DNA of 34,500 nt from an uncultured Bacilli bacterium (GTDB taxonomy: Bacteria > Bacillota_I > Bacilli_A > RF39 > UBA660): NCBI GenBank assembly GCA_947623665.1, contig CANQHJ010000009.1, forward strand, positions 1-34,500, in the 5' to 3' direction. Numbering within the stretch: the stretch's first letter is position 1; every line of letters begins with the position of its first letter. The translations under genes and the position numbers were made by a program. The notes below the pieces were generated by a model, which had not been told where the DNA came from, did no database searches, and worked only from the letters and a program-made list of their open reading frames with translations. Shown piece by piece: positions 1,939-33,938 of this stretch.

Positions 1939-3083
1939 AAATTGATTCCTTCTTTAAATAAACATTTTTCAGTACAGTTATATCCTGGAAATGAACATCT
2001 TGCTCCTTTTGTATATTTTTTTATATCTTCAGCTAAATAATGATTTTGTTCTTTTAAACTTGTCTCATACATAGTTAGAATTTCTTTTGTTTTATTACAA
2101 ATTTCTAATTGTGCAGCAGTACAAAGTCTTTCTTGACATTTAAGTGTGAAGTTTTCATAAGTTCCTCTTTCATTTATTAGAACAAGTTCTCCTTGAGGAT
2201 ATTTCACTTTTTTCATATCTTCTAACCATAATTTTACTAATTCTTTTTCTTCTTCTATTATTGGAGGAATAAAATATTTTTTATTTTCCATTATTTTTAT
2301 TTCATAGTCTAGTGTTCTATGTCTTTGTGCTTGAGCAAAGTATGCAAATGATGCTTCATAGTTTACTGAATATACATCTGAAAAGTGTGTTGTTCTTTTT
2401 TCTGTATTTTCTCCAAAAAGTGATATACTCCTTTGTTTTTCATTTTTTTGTAATCTTTCATCAAGTACATTTAGTTTTTCTAACTCTTTTATAAATTCTT
2501 TCATACTTTCTGCTAATTGAGTTTGAAAACTATTGTTTTTATCAATATTATCTATATATTTATTCATCCATGATACTATATAGTTTATTTGTCTTATTGT
2601 AGTTGAGTAAATCATTTCTGTCGGCATAAATACACTTACTAAGTATCTTGCATTTTCTTGAGCTAGTTTTTCACATTTTCTATCATCAAAACCTTGTCCA
2701 TATCTTGTTTTTATTTTTTCTTTATAAATATCTACCCATTTATTATAAAGTTCTACTTCATCTGATATTTCAACTTTAGTATATCTAGCACTTTTTTCAC
2801 TTGTTGTATATTGATGTTCATTATTTATTACCATGGCAAGTATTTTTGGTAATTCTTTTATATTTAAGTTTATCATTATATGATCATATACACTATGATG
2901 ACCATTATTAATTGTTCTTTCTATTCTTCCATTTGTCTTTTTTTCATCTTCATCTTTTAATACTTCAAATCCATGTTGAGCATAACAAATACCTGCAATT
3001 TTTCCACATAAATTTAGTGCACTTTCTAAATCAAAGGTATTATCTTCTTTTAAATATTTATTTGGTAGTAATTCTATTTTCAT
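1923..3083 (-). CDS. thyX: FAD-dependent thymidylate synthase, tandem double-length ThyX
   Basis: ThyX makes dTMP from dUMP using methylene-THF, NADPH and FAD. At 386 residues this is far longer than the usual 220-250 and looks like two ThyX modules in one chain. Module 1 has the GHHSVYDH element (61-68) and a degenerate signature at 88-100: RHRxxSxNxxSxR reads NEHQYTTSEKSAR, keeping the last Ser and Arg. Module 2 has ASFAYFAQAQRHR (RHR at 254-256), but the Ser/Asn/Ser/Arg positions that follow are D, E, I and E. The C-terminus has the AAQLEI helix and a Cys-containing tail (CSFPGYNCTEKC) like clostridial ThyX ends. The start is supported by AGGAGG. A composite active site is inference. The family call is firm, the double architecture is seen, and activity is unknown. 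Confidence 0.85.
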   Translation of the reverse strand: MKIELLPNKYLKEDNTFDLESALNLCGKIAGICYAQHGFEVLKDEDEKKTNGRIERTINNGHHSVYDHIMINLNIKELPKILAMVINNEHQYTTSEKSARYTKVEISDEVELYNKWVDIYKEKIKTRYGQGFDDRKCEKLAQENARYLVSVFMPTEMIYSTTIRQINYIVSWMNKYIDNIDKNNSFQTQLAESMKEFIKELEKLNVLDERLQKNEKQRSISLFGENTEKRTTHFSDVYSVNYEASFAYFAQAQRHRTLDYEIKIMENKKYFIPPIIEEEKELVKLWLEDMKKVKYPQGELVLINERGTYENFTLKCQERLCTAAQLEICNKTKEILTMYETSLKEQNHYLAEDIKKYTKGARCSFPGYNCTEKCLFKEGINLTRKI

Positions 3084-3109
3084 ACTTCTCCTCCTAAATT
3101 TATCATAAC

Positions 3110-3138
3110 AAAAAAAGCATATTTTATCTATGCTTTTT
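3110..3138 (-). terminator. Terminator after the Rel/SpoT gene
   Basis: The stem AAAAAGCATA / TATGCTTTTT has a 7-nt loop (TTTTATC on the + strand) and overlaps the stop codon at 3137-3139. The A and T tracts make it usable in both directions. Confidence 0.8.
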
Positions 3139-4642
3139 AATTATTTGGTAAAAGTTTTTTATTTTTTAAAGTTAAGTTTTCTAATATTTTCTTTTTGGCA
3201 ACAGTAGTATTAGCACTTTCTACCCAATCTTCACTTGGACCTTTTGAATCTTCTGATGTAATAATTTTTACTCTATCATTTTCTTTTAGTTGATAATCAA
3301 TAGGTACTTCTTTATTATTTACTACTGCTTGTTCATATTTATCTCCTAATTCATCTTTTATACTATAAGCATAATCTATTGGAGTAGAACCTTCTGGTAA
3401 TTTTAATATTTTTCCTGTTGGTGTATAAATACTAACAGATTGATTTGGGAATACTTCTTTTTTTACTGTATCGATAAATTCTTGGCTTTCTCCGAATATA
3501 CTACTTATTTCTTGTAGGCTTCTATAAACTATACTTTTTTCTCTTATTTGGTTTTGCATACTTATTCTAGCATTACCTCTATAAATATCCCAGTAAGCTG
3601 TTAGACCAAATGATGCAATCTTATCCATATCAAAGGTTCTTATTTGAGTTTGAACAAGTCTTTCGTTTTCTCCAAAAACTGTTGTATGTAATGATCTATA
3701 ATAATTTGATTTTGGATTACATATATAATCTTTGAATTTAGAATCAAGTGGACGATATTTAGAATGTATAAGGAATAAAGCTTGATAACAATCTTGTACA
3801 TCTTCTACCATTACTCTTAATACTAATAAGTCATGAATATTTTTAAATTGATTATCTAGGCTTTCTTCACTAATACCTTCTTGAATATTTTTTTGAAGTC
3901 TTCTATAAATACTATAGACATTTTTTGCTCTTATTTTTATTTCAGTATCTATATGATGATATTTAAGTGTCTCACTTATAGAATCTCTCATTTTTTCTAG
4001 ATATTCTTTATTTTCTTGTTTAATTTCATCTCTAAATTCTTTTAATATTTTATAATCATCTGGTCTTAGATAACTAAGTGATAAGTCTTCTAATTCGTTT
4101 TGTATTCTATATGCTCCTATGTAGTTTGCTAGAGGTGCAAATAGTTCTAATGTTTCTAGGGCATTTTCTTTTTGTTTAAAAACACTTTTATATTGTAGTG
4201 TTCTCATATTATGTAATCTATCTGCTAGTTTTATTATAATAATTCTTATATCTTCTGTTATGCTATTAAGTATTTTACTTGTATTAGCAATATTTTGTTG
4301 TTCTTTTGATGAAAAGTTCATACCACTAATTTTAGTAACACCATCTACTAAATCAGCAACATCTTTATTAAATTCTCTTTCTATTTCTTCTTTGGTTATA
4401 TCTGTATCTTCTAATGTATCATGTAAAAGTCCTGCACATACTGTATCACAGTCAGCATGCATTTCAGCAAGTGAATAAGCTACGTTTAGAGGATGAACAA
4501 TATATGGTTCTCCACTTTGTCTATATTGTCCTTTATGTAAATCTTCAGCCATTGAGTATGCTGTAATTATTTGTGCTAAATCGTTAACATTATAGTTTTC
4601 ATCTACTAATTGTAAAAATTTTCTTAAATCTATATCTTCCAT
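3137..4642 (-). CDS. Bifunctional-type (p)ppGpp hydrolase/synthetase (RelA/SpoT homologue), short form
   Basis: This stringent-response enzyme makes and degrades (p)ppGpp. The HD hydrolase domain (about 1-170) keeps H50, H74-D75 (LLHDTLEDT) and D141 (KLADRLHNMRTL). The synthetase domain (about 240-355) keeps FKDYI with D305 and YRSLHTT, but the catalytic glutamate of the usual EVQIRT motif is Q331 (VQTQIRT), and the usual AHW is AYW. A TGS domain follows (about 400-465), and the protein stops at 501 residues, lacking the helical, zinc-finger and ACT parts of long Rel (about 730 aa). I start at 4642 because GGGAGG lies directly upstream. A longer frame to 4726 would begin inside the -35 box of a strong promoter (4698-4726). 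It may act mainly as a hydrolase; this is inference. Confidence 0.9.
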   Translation of the reverse strand: MEDIDLRKFLQLVDENYNVNDLAQIITAYSMAEDLHKGQYRQSGEPYIVHPLNVAYSLAEMHADCDTVCAGLLHDTLEDTDITKEEIEREFNKDVADLVDGVTKISGMNFSSKEQQNIANTSKILNSITEDIRIIIIKLADRLHNMRTLQYKSVFKQKENALETLELFAPLANYIGAYRIQNELEDLSLSYLRPDDYKILKEFRDEIKQENKEYLEKMRDSISETLKYHHIDTEIKIRAKNVYSIYRRLQKNIQEGISEESLDNQFKNIHDLLVLRVMVEDVQDCYQALFLIHSKYRPLDSKFKDYICNPKSNYYRSLHTTVFGENERLVQTQIRTFDMDKIASFGLTAYWDIYRGNARISMQNQIREKSIVYRSLQEISSIFGESQEFIDTVKKEVFPNQSVSIYTPTGKILKLPEGSTPIDYAYSIKDELGDKYEQAVVNNKEVPIDYQLKENDRVKIITSEDSKGPSEDWVESANTTVAKKKILENLTLKNKKLLPNN

Positions 4643-10872: not shown

Positions 10873-11109
10873 AAAAAAAACAGTTATCTTCCACTAGGGA
10901 CGAATAACTGTTTATAATCCGCGGTACCACCCAATTTATTATATTAAATATAATCACTTATATGAGATAACGGTTCATCCGACTTATTCTACTATTATTT
11001 CAAACAAGTAGCTCGTGGGTGTCTTTTGTTTTGTAATTTATATTATCTTTCACCTTACGATAACTCTCTTGAATAAATTATAAAACTACTCTTCCCAGTC
11101 ATCACTGAT
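10873..11109 (-). promoter_or_regulatory. T-box riboswitch, aspartate-specific, upstream of aspS
   Basis: On the minus strand the conserved T-box TGGGTGGTACCGCGG lies at about 10919-10933. Stem I contains the GA motif AGAGAG and an apical GGTGAAA segment. The loop 5' of the lower stem I strand holds GAC (11021-11023), an aspartate codon fitting the downstream AspRS. The terminator AACAGTTAT / ATAACTGTT followed by eight T ends just before aspS. The uncharged tRNA-Asp acceptor end would pair in the antiterminator bulge and allow readthrough. Confidence 0.95.
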
Positions 11110-11115
11110 AGGTAT

Positions 11116-27863: not shown

Positions 27864-27892
27864 TTGACAAATTTAAAAAATTAATTTATGAT
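27864..27892 (+). promoter_or_regulatory. Consensus promoter of the candidate small RNA
   Basis: TTGACA (27864-27869), a 17-bp spacer and TATGAT (27887-27892) form a near-perfect sigma-70 promoter with no reading frame after it. Start is expected at 27897-27899, exactly where the first hairpin begins. Confidence 0.8.
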
Positions 27893-27898
27893 TAAGAT

Positions 27899-27995
27899 GC
27901 GTGATAGATATCACGCCGATTATATCTCACGATTTAGTGAGATTATATTCAACCGAACCCCCTGAAGGAGCCAATTAGGCTCCGCTTTTATTATT
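27899..27995 (+). ncRNA. Candidate structured small RNA in the 453-bp gene-free stretch
   Basis: After a strong promoter come a perfect 8-bp hairpin right at the predicted 5' end (GCGTGATA / TATCACGC, 27899-27916) and a perfect 7-bp hairpin (ATCTCAC / GTGAGAT, 27924-27943, loop GATTTA). A single-stranded C-rich segment follows (AACCCCCTGA, 27956-27965), then a terminator stem GGAGCC / GGCTCC (27967-27983) with a U-rich tail. No ORF with a ribosome site is present. The G/C content is concentrated here in an otherwise AT-rich gap, showing constraint on structure. The C-run could pair with GGAGG ribosome sites, as in RsaE-like regulatory RNAs; that role is inference. I recognise no known RNA family. 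The rest of the 27759-28211 gap holds only the repeats and hairpin listed separately. Confidence 0.65.
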
Positions 27996-28141: not shown

Positions 28142-28173
28142 AAATAACAAGCCCACTTTTAGACTTGTTATTT
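28142..28173. terminator. Hairpin downstream of the GNAT gene
   Basis: The perfect 10-bp stem AAATAACAAG / CTTGTTATTT has a 12-nt loop, located about 40 nt past the GNAT stop. The better T-run is on the + strand (TTTTTATATA), so it may also stop rightward transcripts from the small-RNA promoter. Confidence 0.65.
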
Positions 28174-28211: not shown

Positions 28212-28826
28212 TTATTTTTTTGATTTTAATAGTATTTTTTGATTTTTTGGTGCTACTGCAACTACTAAAGCATCATTAGAATTTATTTCAATATCAAAAT
28301 TTTCTTTTATAGCATTTAAATCATGATAAAGTTGATTTGGATAACAATTTTTTATAACACTATTTTCTTCTATATTTTCAAATGGTGTTATTTTTCTTAA
28401 ATAATCTATTATTTCACTATTAATATCTTTTGGTATTTCTAATGTTTTGTTTGGAAAAGTTGTTAATAAAGATTTAGCCATAGCAATATTTTGTGTTCTT
28501 AGTGATACTAAATTAGTATTTACTTCTTGATATGCTTTTCTTATTATTTCTCTTGATATGTTATATCCTTGATATTTTTTATCTATTACCATTCCTGATA
28601 AATATAGCATTGTATTTAATTCTTCTTCAAAAATTTCAAACACTCCAAATCCTGCAAGGGATTTTGTTTTATTAATTAATAATTTTAAAATTAAATTTTC
28701 TTTTTCAAATAAGTGGTTATATACATCTTGATAATCTACTGGGAAAGCTGCTCTTGTACAGATTTCATGTGCTTGTTGTGCTAAATAATTTTTATCTATT
28801 GTTCTATCAAAATCTATTATTTTCAT
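28212..28826 (-). CDS. GNAT-like N-acetyltransferase
   Basis: This is a 204-residue protein. The best-fit element is a GNAT motif A at about 73-95 (TMLYLSGMVIDKKYQGYNISREIIRKAY), with a beta-strand ending in 'V' before the acetyl-CoA-type loop (here KYQGYNIS rather than the usual RxxGxG) and a helix after it. A later QNIAMAKSLL may be motif B. The C-terminal 60 residues are not assigned. The loop is degenerate, so activity is uncertain. It lies 5 nt after the M20 peptidase gene, hence one operon; it ends with the hairpin at 28142. The peptidase-acetyltransferase pair is controlled by the attenuator at 29929-30147. Confidence 0.7.
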   Translation of the reverse strand: MKIIDFDRTIDKNYLAQQAHEICTRAAFPVDYQDVYNHLFEKENLILKLLINKTKSLAGFGVFEIFEEELNTMLYLSGMVIDKKYQGYNISREIIRKAYQEVNTNLVSLRTQNIAMAKSLLTTFPNKTLEIPKDINSEIIDYLRKITPFENIEENSVIKNCYPNQLYHDLNAIKENFDIEINSNDALVVAVAPKNQKILLKSKK

Positions 28827-28831
28827 TTTAT

Positions 28832-29869
28832 CTACTTCCCTTCATTATAAAATTTTATTATTTCTTCATATAGTTTTTCAGTTTTTTCTAAGGACTTACA
28901 TTTTATAAATTCATTTTTTTGATGTGATGTATCTGGCCCTGGACCTAATATAATAAAGTTTTTATCAATGTATGATCCTTCTGTTAAATAACATTTTGTT
29001 TGTTTTTTGGAAGATATTTTTTCTAAAAACTCTATATTATTCTTATTTAATTTTGGTTGTATATCTTGTCTTATATATAATTTATAATTATATTCTTTTA
29101 AAATATTTTTTATTTTTTTTATTATTTTTTTTGATTGATTCTTTTTAGCAATTCTAAAATCTATACTTATTTCACATTTTCCTGCAACTGAGTTAACTGT
29201 TTCTCCACCTTTTATCATTCCTATATTCATAGTAGTATATGGTATTTCAAACTCTTCTACTTTTTCTTTTTTTAATGTTTTTTCATAATAATCTCTTAAT
29301 TCATCTATAAAATCTACACATTTATAAATTGCACTTATTCCTTTATCCGGAGTTGATGAATGACATTTTATTCCATGAAACTCTATTTTTAACTCTAATA
29401 CTCCTTTTGTACCACAAATAGGTATATTGTTCGTTGGTTCTCCAATAATTACATTATTAGGTACTATTTCTTCTTTTATATCTTTTATTCCACTAAATCC
29501 TATTTCTTCATCATTTGTAAAATATAGAGCTATTTTATTTTTTTCTAAATTTATTTTTGAGATAGTTTTTAATATGGCTGCAATGCCACCTTTCATATCA
29601 CAAGCACCTAAACCTATTAATTTTCCATTTTCTTCTTTTAATTCAAAGGGACTTTTATCCCATGATTCATAATCAACTGTATCTGTGTGTCCAATAAATC
29701 CTATATTAGGATTTTCATCATTATAGGCTATTAAACATTTTTTTATTCTCTTTGTCTTGAATTTGTACTTTTTTAAATAATTTTCGATAAAGTCCATTAT
29801 TTCTTTATTTTCTTTATCTTTGATTGTATTATAACTAACTAATTTTTTTAATATTTCTTTTGATTCCAT
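28832..29869 (-). CDS. M20-family metallopeptidase (ArgE/DapE/CPG2 type)
   Basis: This is a 345-residue di-zinc hydrolase. Metal and catalytic residues are in order: H61 and D63 (GHTDTVD), D91 (LGACDMKGG), E121-E122 (TNDEEIG), and the later GEPT. A lid/dimerisation domain is recognisable from VLELKIEFHGIKCHSSTPDKGISAI and the C-terminal metal His in PDTSHQKNEF. M20 enzymes remove acyl, succinyl or amino-acid groups (ArgE, DapE, dipeptidases); the substrate cannot be fixed, but an acetyltransferase follows 5 nt downstream, hinting at acylated amino acids or peptides. The ribosome site is AAGGAGG. Transcription must pass the leader terminator at 29929-29970. Confidence 0.9.
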   Translation of the reverse strand: MESKEILKKLVSYNTIKDKENKEIMDFIENYLKKYKFKTKRIKKCLIAYNDENPNIGFIGHTDTVDYESWDKSPFELKEENGKLIGLGACDMKGGIAAILKTISKINLEKNKIALYFTNDEEIGFSGIKDIKEEIVPNNVIIGEPTNNIPICGTKGVLELKIEFHGIKCHSSTPDKGISAIYKCVDFIDELRDYYEKTLKKEKVEEFEIPYTTMNIGMIKGGETVNSVAGKCEISIDFRIAKKNQSKKIIKKIKNILKEYNYKLYIRQDIQPKLNKNNIEFLEKISSKKQTKCYLTEGSYIDKNFIILGPGPDTSHQKNEFIKCKSLEKTEKLYEEIIKFYNEGK

Positions 29870-29928
29870 AATAATATTTTCCTCCTTTTTTATTTTTCGT
29901 TGCTTTACCTATTTGAAAATATTATATG

Positions 29929-29970
29929 TACCAAAAAAAAGAATACAAGATATTTCACCTGTATTCTTTT
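29929..29970 (-). terminator. Attenuator terminator upstream of the M20 gene
   Basis: The 11-bp stem AAAAGAATACA / TGTATTCTTTT (29937-29947, 29960-29970) has a 12-nt loop and is followed by a run of T (nine in a row counting the stem) on the minus strand. It lies 60 nt before the M20 gene, so full termination would silence it. Confidence 0.9.
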
Positions 29971-30032
29971 AATTTATATTTTATCTCATACAGGTATAAG
30001 CAACACAAAACTCACTTATACCTGTTAACAAT

Positions 30033-30101
30033 TTAATGTTTTTTAGTATAAGTGTTACCTATATGATGACGCCAAGTATTATTCATTTTAAATTTTTCCA
30101 T
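30033..30101 (-). CDS. Putative 22-residue leader peptide
   Basis: A short frame from ATG 30101 to TAA 30033 encodes MEKFKMNNTWRHHIGNTYTK plus two last residues (K, H). A ribosome site AAAGGA lies 10 nt upstream, a little far. The codons for Asn-Thr-Tyr-Thr overlap attenuator segment 1. No similar peptide is known to me. Position in the leader, not sequence identity, is the reason to call it. Candidate stall codons are Trp-Arg-His-His (10-13). Confidence 0.5.
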   Translation of the reverse strand: MEKFKMNNTWRHHIGNTYTKKH

Positions 30102-30153
30102 ATAAATAACATCCTTTCTTTTTTATATTATCAGCTGATTGCTGATGGGATTA

Positions 30154-30182
30154 ATATTATCACAATTATTTTTATTAGTCAA
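30154..30182 (-). promoter_or_regulatory. Promoter of the attenuator leader
   Basis: TTGACT (30177-30182), a 17-bp spacer and TAATAT (30154-30159) lie on the minus strand, 8 nt after the recG stop codon. The start near 30147 is at the edge of the first leader hairpin. Confidence 0.75.
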
Positions 30183-32213: not shown

Positions 32214-32282
32214 TAAACTTTAAAAAAAATGTATATTAAATGTATAGTAATGACAAAAAAATTCTTTCTTTTTCTTGTTTTA

Positions 32283-32291
32283 TGTTATAAT
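32283..32291 (+). promoter_or_regulatory. Extended -10 element of the adhesin gene
   Basis: TGTTATAAT (TATAAT at 32286-32291) lies 25 nt upstream of the ATG at 32316. It rules out the longer frame beginning at 32229, whose first ATG would lie upstream of the RNA start. Confidence 0.7.
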
Positions 32292-32315
32292 GTTTATTAT
32301 AGGGTGGTGTATGAT

Positions 32316-33938
32316 ATGAAAGACCAATCTAAAAATAAGCATTTTTTAAATATTTTAAGTGGTTTTAGTATTTTAAGTGTATTATTATTTACTTTTACCG
32401 TTTATGTTTTAAAAGATAGTTATGCTATACCAGTTAGTGATAGTAATATTCCTACTAATGATTTTACAACTAATTATAACGGAAGTAGTGATTCTTTAAA
32501 AAATTATATTGAAGATGCTTTAGGAAGCAGTTACGAGAATAGAAAATATTTTGAAAACTTTAGAGTACCAGATAATTATAAAACTAGTGATAGTAATATT
32601 CCTTTATATATACTTACTAAGAATTCTAAGTTTGCAAGGAATACTGAAAGTTTTGAATTAAAATCTGGTAATCCAACTAGTATTACTGATAATGGATTAA
32701 AGTATATTATTACTCATGGTTATAATCAATTAAATACTAATAATGTGTTTGATGATGCTTTATATGGTCCAGTAGCAGATAATAATATTAAACATTATGT
32801 AACTCAGATTGCTATTTGGCTATATTTATTAGAACACGAAAATGAGTTTACTTCTTCTTATTGTAGTCAAGTAAATATTCATATGAGTGAAGAGGATGAA
32901 ACTCCTGAGTCTTTTGCAAAAATTAGTGGTTGTTCTTTTTATCACTATGTTCAAAGCTCTGATTATAATATGAATACTGCTAATATTTATGATATTAAAA
33001 AAATAGTTCAAGATGCAGGTGAAAAAAGTGGTTATAACTATTTAAATTATATTATTAATTTATTAGATGAAGCTGATGCTCATAGAGGTACTTCTTCTAA
33101 TGATAATGCTGGTATTGAGCTATCTCCTAGTGGTTCTTTAGGTTATTCAATACCTGCTGATGGTAAGTCTCTTACAACTGAGGCTATTAAAGTTACTAAT
33201 ACTAATCCTGATAATCCTTATTTAAGTTTTTCTGTTGAAATAGAAGATCCAAATAAGTATGGTGTTTACTTAATAGACCAAAATGGAAAGAAAATTGAAA
33301 ATACAGATAATATGAATAGTTCATTTAGAATATTTGTTCCTTTAAAGGATGATATAGATTTAACTACTGTTAAAGTTAAAGTGAATGCATCATTTTTAAG
33401 TTCTAATCTTAATGGATATAATGTTACTAAGACTACTGCTCAGGATAAAGTTTTTGATTCTAAAGATAAACAATTTAAATTTTCAGAAGTATTATTAGGA
33501 TATATTCCAACAAAGACTTCTACTCTTTCTATTTCACTTAGTAATGTTACTAAATTTAGTAAAGTGGATGCTACTAATGGTAAAGAACTTCCTGGAGCTA
33601 AGCTTGAAGTTAGAAGAAAAGGAGAAGATGAAATTCTTTATAATTGGGTATCAGAGACTAATCCTAAATTCTTCTATTTAGAAGATGGTAATTATACTTT
33701 ATGTGAAAGTTCTGCTCCAAAGGGTTATGAATTACAAGAAGAATGTGTTGATTTCTTTGTTGATGGTTCTAAAATTAATACTGTTGTTATGAAAAATACT
33801 CCTACTAAATCTAGATTAATTGCTAGTGTACCTAATACTGGAACATTTATTAATATTTTACTTTATATATGTGGTGGTGCTATTATATTAACTGGAGTAT
33901 ACTTTATTGGATTTACATTATATAAAAATAAAAAGTAA
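32316..33938 (+). CDS. Thioester-domain (TQXA) surface protein with Cna-B domain and VPNTG sorting signal
   Basis: This is a 540-residue cell-surface adhesin. A signal anchor segment (about 12-33) is followed by a thioester-domain-like region with TQIAIW (T163-W168), the conserved TQxAIW motif. In active domains the Gln bonds to an upstream Cys ('YC' motif); here the corresponding stretch is PLYILTKN, with no Cys between the signal segment and residue 163. Next comes a middle beta-domain (about 270-420), then a Cna-B/SpaA-type domain (KFSKVDATNGKELPGAKLEV ... YTLCESSAPKGYELQEE) and the sorting signal VPNTG (505-509), a hydrophobic helix and KNKK tail. It should be wall-anchored by a sortase. 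I start at 32316 behind AGGGTGG. The terminator is at 33937. Confidence 0.85.
   Translation: MKDQSKNKHFLNILSGFSILSVLLFTFTVYVLKDSYAIPVSDSNIPTNDFTTNYNGSSDSLKNYIEDALGSSYENRKYFENFRVPDNYKTSDSNIPLYILTKNSKFARNTESFELKSGNPTSITDNGLKYIITHGYNQLNTNNVFDDALYGPVADNNIKHYVTQIAIWLYLLEHENEFTSSYCSQVNIHMSEEDETPESFAKISGCSFYHYVQSSDYNMNTANIYDIKKIVQDAGEKSGYNYLNYIINLLDEADAHRGTSSNDNAGIELSPSGSLGYSIPADGKSLTTEAIKVTNTNPDNPYLSFSVEIEDPNKYGVYLIDQNGKKIENTDNMNSSFRIFVPLKDDIDLTTVKVKVNASFLSSNLNGYNVTKTTAQDKVFDSKDKQFKFSEVLLGYIPTKTSTLSISLSNVTKFSKVDATNGKELPGAKLEVRRKGEDEILYNWVSETNPKFFYLEDGNYTLCESSAPKGYELQEECVDFFVDGSKINTVVMKNTPTKSRLIASVPNTGTFINILLYICGGAIILTGVYFIGFTLYKNKK

Follow-up and report, generated by a model that had tools for sequence, protein, structure and literature searches.

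A probable ribosome-mediated attenuator with a tryptophan sensor codon and an odd-numbered segment chain before an M20 hydrolase operon, and its histidine-codon paralogues, in uncultured Bacilli

The window, by which we mean the whole stretch of 34,500 nucleotides analysed here, carries on its minus strand a leader that lies between the end of recG and a gene for an M20 metallohydrolase. An initial annotation had described a promoter, a 5' hairpin, a 22-codon frame and a series of alternative helices in this interval, and all of them are present, on the minus strand. The features are given below in the order of transcription.

30182-29867 (-): whole leader, between the end of recG (30190) and the M20 gene
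30154..30182 (-): promoter TTGACT-17-TAATAT, 9/12 match, with TG before the -10
30130..30146 (-): 5' hairpin ATCAGC-AATCA-GCTGAT, close to the predicted 5' end
30033..30101 (-): leader peptide frame MEKFKMNNTWRHHIGNTYTKKH, 22 codons, with AAAGGA upstream and the stop within the 1:2 loop
30072..30074 (-): putative regulatory codon TGG (Trp), invariant; TGGTGG in L011
30057..30065 (-): segment 0, CATATAGGT (codons H-I-G), 9 bp with ACCTGTATG of segment 3
30046..30054 (-): segment 1, CACTTATAC, pairs with segment 2
30013..30025 (-): segment 2, ACAGGTATAAGTG, partner of 1 or 3, with triple covariation over 25 leaders
29987..30005 (-): segment 3, TGTTGCTTATACCTGTATG, partner of 2, 4, 0 or 6
29957..29970 (-): segment 4, AAAAGAATACAGGT, partner of 3 (antiterminator) or 5
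29933..29949 (-): segment 5, as 3' half of the intrinsic terminator, with the T-run
29898..29909 (-): segment 6, GGTAAAGCAACG, 3' of the terminator, partner of the 5' part of segment 3
28832..29869 (-): M20 metallohydrolase gene (ArgE/DapE-like), first gene after the leader
28212..28826 (-): GNAT-like acetyltransferase gene, orphan subfamily, second gene of the operon
28142..28173 (-): terminator-like hairpin closing the M20-GNAT operon

The assignment of the second gene product (28826-28212) as GNAT-like rests on Pfam matches, weak in the window and stronger in orthologues, and on a structure model of medium confidence in which the N-terminal half resembles GNAT structures. The ilvA and RidA-type genes beyond the hairpin at 28173-28142 look like units apart from the M20-GNAT operon. 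Between ilvA and the GNAT gene there is also a plus-strand element (27864-27990), with a promoter-like TTGACA-17-TATGAT and, some 75 bases 3' of it, several hairpins and a terminator-like GGAGCC..GGCTCC, which could be a small RNA. The promoter-like pattern of the leader is weak evidence when taken alone, as 38 such sites occur where 25.8 would be expected in the same AT-rich DNA; across 12 aligned leaders, its TTGAC and, in the -10, TA..T are unchanged. A hairpin CATCAGT..ACTGGTG, resembling the 5' hairpin of the window, is present in many relatives, not all.

The window leader can form helices 1:2 (9 bp), 2:3 (8-11 bp), 3:4 (8 bp) and 4:5 (approximately 12 bp followed by the T-run). The 258-nt leader has a folding energy of -58.3 kcal/mol against -38.3 kcal/mol for shuffled sequence (z = -4.8), and none of 200 shuffles was as low. 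Segments 0 and 6, like the Trp codon, do not figure in the initial annotation. The 0:3 helix is part of the minimum-energy fold of the window leader and is complementary in all 13 Trp-codon leaders described below, with 100% of positions paired and variation solely to G-U. In each of the 13 leaders the 3:6 duplex is better than that obtained when the downstream sequence is shuffled (p 0.04 to <0.004), and compensatory changes are seen among its versions CAUUGC:GCAAUG, UGUUGC:GCAACG and GUAUUGC:GCAAUAC. With a ribosome placed on the Trp codon of the full-length RNA, predicted 3:6 pairing in the window leader rises from 0.18 to 0.85, and the M20 ribosome site is predicted to be more open in several leaders. 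Because segment 6 is transcribed after the termination decision, it may provide a second, post-transcriptional layer of control.

A protein search with the window M20 returned 12 close relatives (69-77% identity) from metagenome-assembled genomes labelled Bacilli, Tenericutes, Erysipelotrichaceae and similar. The leader is present in all 11 of those having upstream DNA, and a genome scan added L039, giving orthologous leaders at 12 further loci, or 13 with the window. The leader-peptide attenuator with a chain of five segments that had been proposed from the window alone is supported, and every one of these 12 loci carries all five. Segments 1, 2 and 3 are unchanged among the 13 Trp leaders, as would be expected if each has several pairing partners. 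Compensated changes do occur in the terminator and in the inner part of 1:2, and the 3:4 pairing is kept, its sole variation among the Trp leaders being to G-U.

The short frame appears to be maintained as protein, with its ribosome site, as in trp- and his-type attenuators. It is open in all 14 leaders compared, in which indels occur only as multiples of three, and the start region GAAAGGA(T/A)GTTATTTATATG is almost unchanged, with an invariant Shine-Dalgarno region. The consensus peptide in most leaders is MKxxxxNNxW(R/H)H(I/M)GNTYTxR-stop, of which the core W(R/H)H(I/M)GNTYT is kept in frame across the orthologous leaders. A His codon, CAT, is likewise invariant and lies 2-3 codons 3' of TGG. 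A pattern search with the core (up to 3 mismatches) returned for the most part MetRS genes (L025, L036, L038 and others), in which KPHIGNTYE of the HIGH region resembles HIGNTYT in its DNA; this we judged to be coincidence.

A covariance model built from the 13 Trp leaders, with no use of target genes, was applied first to 395 and later to 385 genomes. In addition to M20 leaders it yielded 12 others (E 2e-7 to 3e-4) of the same layout in the same bacterial family. Their peptides are of a different kind, ending HH(H/N/Y)..LHLLIRH with the core ..HHHNSLHLLIRH, and these we refer to as His leaders. A further weak match, in G136, reads NHVHNSLHLLIRH and lies 5' of HisG. In the joint alignment of 25 leaders, Trp and His types together, 12 of the 25 show a triple covariation: A to G in segment 1 (CACTTaTAC), U to C in segment 2 (GTAuAAGTG) and A to G in segment 3 (CTTaTAC). 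This is one event dividing two groups, not 12 independent events. The alternative helices 1:2 and 2:3 are supported, because a single base of segment 2 stays complementary to its partners in segments 1 and 3. In the terminator helix 4:5, six of eight pairs have two-sided changes and 100% of cells pair over the 25 leaders. Covariation of the stems had been put forward as the check on the initial annotation, and a lack of compensatory changes in 1:2 as counting against it; such changes do exist in 1:2, as in 2:3 and 4:5, once the His paralogues are included. The 3:4 pairing is conserved and varies in the Trp leaders to G-U only. Taken as a comparison of sequences, these data argue for mutually exclusive helices ending in a terminator, as in trp- and his-type attenuators.

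The genes that follow the His leaders are diverse. HisRS comes next in G083, G222, G247 and G310, HisG in G144 and G136, an M20-GNAT-HisRS series in G359 and an M20 paralogue in G227. In G026, G287 and G337 the leader precedes a gene for a 494-aa protein and then an S66 peptidase gene, which is followed by HisRS in G026; HisRS was not seen directly behind S66 in G287 or G337. Among known structures, those of the MccF-like kind match the S66 protein of G026 best (E 7e-72; E 3e-40 for MccF itself), with muramoyltetrapeptide carboxypeptidases far more distant. In G012 an S66 gene lies directly 5' of a HisRS gene of the same type, the contig ending before any leader position. The 494-aa protein (2280-3764 (-) in L176; also in L177 and L173), whose gene opens these operons behind the His leader, ahead of that for the MccF-like peptidase, was assigned to no family by our searches; it has a CSGS motif in the context SICSGSVMS, and our guess is a peptidase S51-like fold. 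A phosphoribosyltransferase-like gene paired with a SLOG gene follows the His leader in G398 and G262; in L178 and L182 the genes 3' of the leader encode a phosphoribosyltransferase-like fragment and a SLOG cluster4 protein. The M20 of the His type is 42% identical to that of the window, and the two GNATs have no detectable similarity, from which it follows that an acetyltransferase was recruited twice. G083 has two HisRS genes, of which the one with the lower TIGR00442 score carries the leader. HisZ was considered in place of HisRS and rejected, as the two proteins checked, those of L176 and L179, exceed the TIGR00442 threshold, have lower scores with HisZ models and contain an anticodon domain. 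Lone HisG genes under His leaders were observed at 2775-3470 (-) in L184, 5435-6040 (+) in L017 and from 1648 (+) in L186; hisD was not found in G144 and G424, genomes with a lone HisG.

The attenuator was seen in one family only among the genomes sampled. No leader was found in 20 upstream regions of HisS genes from other genomes of the order, and a model of both versions, applied with strict filters to 392 genomes of the phylum, matched nothing besides the window's own copy. The two types together look like a swappable family of sensors of amino-acid starvation, or of synthetase poisons, in gut and rumen bacteria. One RNA chassis with two sensor codons and matching targets amounts to a natural codon-swap experiment on the evolution of a switch.

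Under the TGG leaders, the genes are those for M20 and GNAT, joined by TrpRS in L012, L014 and L017. These are the only three loci with a visible leader that have TrpRS, and the window's own operon has none; L016 has M20-GNAT-TrpRS on a contig that starts inside M20, so that its leader position is beyond the contig end. A tRNA-Trp(CCA) gene lies directly 3' of TrpRS in L012 and L017, and past it come a His leader and HisG in L017 and a His leader and a GNAT-like gene in L012. Within or close to the M20 loci, tRNA-Trp genes occur at 4862-4935 in L012, 1619-1692 and 5152-5225 in L017, where two thus occur within 4 kb, and 5360-5433 in L019. Identities of the operon TrpRS are 76% between L012 and L017 and 63% between L014 and L016, and approximately 35% or less between lineages; because they fall in two distant lineages, TrpRS must have joined the operon at least twice. 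The genomes of L012, L014 and L017 each have a second TrpRS-like gene elsewhere and carry three PF00579 genes, where most of the other genomes have two. As far as the compared sequences indicate, then, the regulatory codon is cognate to the genes downstream, TGG standing with TrpRS and tRNA-Trp and CAT with HisRS and HisG. Neither trpB nor hisD was found in any of the 14 leader genomes tested for each (one weak trpB match was ilvA). Control of Trp or His biosynthesis was rejected, and the system is not one of biosynthetic feedback, because both genes are missing from the genomes tested.

The dependence of these helices on ribosome position was modelled by masking a footprint of assumed size at each codon, the folds being those at equilibrium and not a treatment of kinetics. 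In 25 of 25 leaders, a count that sets aside a second, late Trp in L019, the last A-site codon permitting 1:2 comes 0-4 codons 3' of the final regulatory codon, and this spacing holds although the leaders differ in peptide length and codon number. The predicted probability of 3:4 with TGG in the A site is 0.92 for the window leader; 12 of the 13 Trp leaders have values of 0.52-0.98, and in 11 of those 12 it drops to about zero a few codons further on. The exceptions are L017, with 0.00 at equilibrium, and L019, in which 3:4 stays high until late codons. In all 12 His leaders the probability of 1:2 is near 1 with the ribosome on the first His codons and drops to 0 a few codons later. In the absence of a ribosome, 3:4 differs between leaders, from 0.00 to 0.97, with 0.34 in the window. 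These in silico folds suggest that a stall at the regulatory codon selects the antiterminator.

We consider it very likely that the element is a ribosome-mediated transcription attenuator, in which a single invariant Trp codon, immediately 5' of an odd-numbered chain of segments, has the regulatory role. The cellular signal we infer to be the charging of tRNA-Trp. When charged tRNA-Trp is scarce, the ribosome would wait at TGG, covering segment 0 and leaving segment 1 free; 1:2 would then form, segment 3 would take segment 4, and the terminator would be blocked, allowing transcription of M20 and GNAT and, in relatives, of TrpRS and tRNA-Trp. When Trp-tRNA is plentiful, a ribosome past TGG would mask segment 1, so that 2:3 forms and 4:5 terminates. 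In some leaders the untranslated RNA would tend to terminate by way of 0:3, and after readthrough segment 6 could capture segment 3, which would free segment 4. Parity would thus be inverted with respect to the trp operon with an equal outcome, starvation switching the operon on.

The parity given in the initial annotation, with termination when the ribosome sits on segment 1 and readthrough when it stalls earlier, agrees with the folding scans and the covariation. Its expectation that an absent ribosome also gives readthrough is uncertain, since 0:3 favours termination in the window (the 0.34 for 3:4 against 0.92 with TGG in the A site). Its view that the switch runs against trp logic and answers to a drug or to starvation of unspecified kind has to be revised: the codon is Trp, uncharged tRNA-Trp would give readthrough as in trp, and only the segment count is inverted.

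Amino-acid attenuators are of an already known kind. The trp and his leaders of Proteobacteria and Actinobacteria share with the present one a translated short leader, cognate codons, exclusive hairpins, an intrinsic terminator and readthrough on starvation. They differ in having one segment fewer, whereas here a stall would let 1:2 form and make 3:4 the antiterminator; in having two Trp codons in tandem rather than one; in lacking a segment 0 and a post-terminator segment 6; and in controlling biosynthesis rather than M20, GNAT, TrpRS and tRNA-Trp. The trpRS1 gene of Streptomyces coelicolor reportedly encodes an auxiliary, indolmycin-resistant TrpRS under ribosome-mediated attenuation, as Vecchione and Sello are said to have found in 2010. 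As described, it resembles the present system in placing an extra TrpRS under a leader attenuator, a trait of L012, L014 and L017 and not of the window operon, but it belongs to another phylum, and the operons seen here begin with M20 and GNAT, with tRNA-Trp behind in some. A passage in PMC4787780 cites ribosome-mediated attenuation of a Streptomyces auxiliary TrpRS, and the resistance is summarised in PMC9437257. A His leader 5' of hisS* and hisZ was described in Bacillus (Naville and Gautheret, PMC2965389) and, from that description, is alike in that a leader peptide with His codons stands ahead of a HisRS paralogue in Firmicutes; we found no mention there of inverted parity, a Trp version or M20 or MccF-like partners. 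In the literature searched, the inverted chain, a natural Trp/His swap, segments 0 and 6 and this set of targets were not found described.

The use to which these operons are put is less certain. They join hydrolases, acetyltransferases and extra synthetases in organisms without detectable trpB or hisD, and two functions may be envisaged. Tentatively, codon-swapped Trp and His attenuators of inverted parity may drive inducible defence islands against antibiotics that poison TrpRS or HisRS, the islands consisting of an M20 or MccF-like hydrolase, an acetyltransferase, a spare synthetase and in some a spare tRNA. The immunity factors of microcin C include the MccE2 GNAT and the MccF peptidase (PMC9239234, PMC3817062), aminoacyl adenylates of many kinds are reported to be acetylated by MccE and RimL (PMC3817062), and spare synthetases confer resistance to TrpRS poisons (PMC9437257). 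Comparable here are an MccF-clade peptidase beside HisRS under a His leader and a GNAT beside M20 and a synthetase. However, no biosynthetic cluster was seen, we know of no M20 enzyme acting as an immunity factor, and the targets would be TrpRS or HisRS and not AspRS. An MccF-like protein occurs in the His operons; the window has only M20 and GNAT. Caution also comes from the finding that MccF effectively cleaves aspartyl and glutamyl adenylates only (PMC3817062).

It is about as conceivable that the regulated enzymes supply Trp or His to auxotrophs by hydrolysis of peptides or N-acyl-amino acids, with synthetase and tRNA raised to make use of a scarce amino acid. Supply of both must be external, because trpB and hisD were not found in the 14 leader genomes; M20 enzymes are often amidases or dipeptidases, and TrpRS and tRNA-Trp occur within one operon. 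The GNAT, the MccF-like partners and the extra synthetase copies are not, however, obvious salvage enzymes, and recruitment of an acetyltransferase on two occasions also speaks against salvage. We weakly favour defence against synthetase poisons, with amino-acid salvage close behind. The prediction is either an undescribed class of Trp- or His-RS poisons in the gut and rumen or a dedicated route of Trp and His scavenging.

With regard to what is sensed, a response of the window leader to His, alone or along with Trp, is unlikely. The CAT that follows TGG is invariant and inside the permissive zone, the paralogues are His leaders and, in L017, a His leader and HisG come after the Trp operon. 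However, CAT belongs to segment 0, and because of this its conservation needs no role as a codon; in the loci seen, moreover, genes of the TGG leaders include TrpRS and tRNA-Trp and never HisRS. More improbable still is an arrest peptide sensing a ribosome-targeting drug or small metabolite in place of tRNA-Trp charging. The core W.H(I/M)GNTYT is unusually conserved, as in sensor peptides, but the conserved residues after Trp come from segments 0 and 1, where pairing restricts the choice of nucleotide, and the paralogues swap the whole core (HHHNSLHLLIRH), keep the RNA layout and target His genes. Drug-responsive upstream frames of the erm/mef/msr type combine an arrest sequence that depends on a drug with ribosome-protection or efflux targets; the genes here are for synthetase, tRNA, hydrolase and acetyltransferase. 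An ordinary terminator with chance repeats and no regulation, easy as these are to find in AT-rich DNA with promoter matches near background, is contradicted by conservation and covariation over 25 leaders, the kept frame and the z of -4.8, and can practically be discarded.

To our knowledge regular leader-peptide attenuators have rarely been described in Firmicutes, where T-boxes dominate. An Rfam scan of the M20 leader gave no match, including to the T-box family RF00230, and a T-box identity was rejected on that account; RsaOG and SNORD11B were rejected as their scores were under threshold. The same scan does match a T-box leader at 10893-11111 (-) with 143 bits, 5' of an aspartyl/asparaginyl-type tRNA synthetase gene (10861-9548), so this genome also uses T-boxes. 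Next to recG, the window encodes a secreted protein (32229-33938 (+)) with a C-terminal VPNTG-type anchor, which is probably a sortase-attached surface protein.
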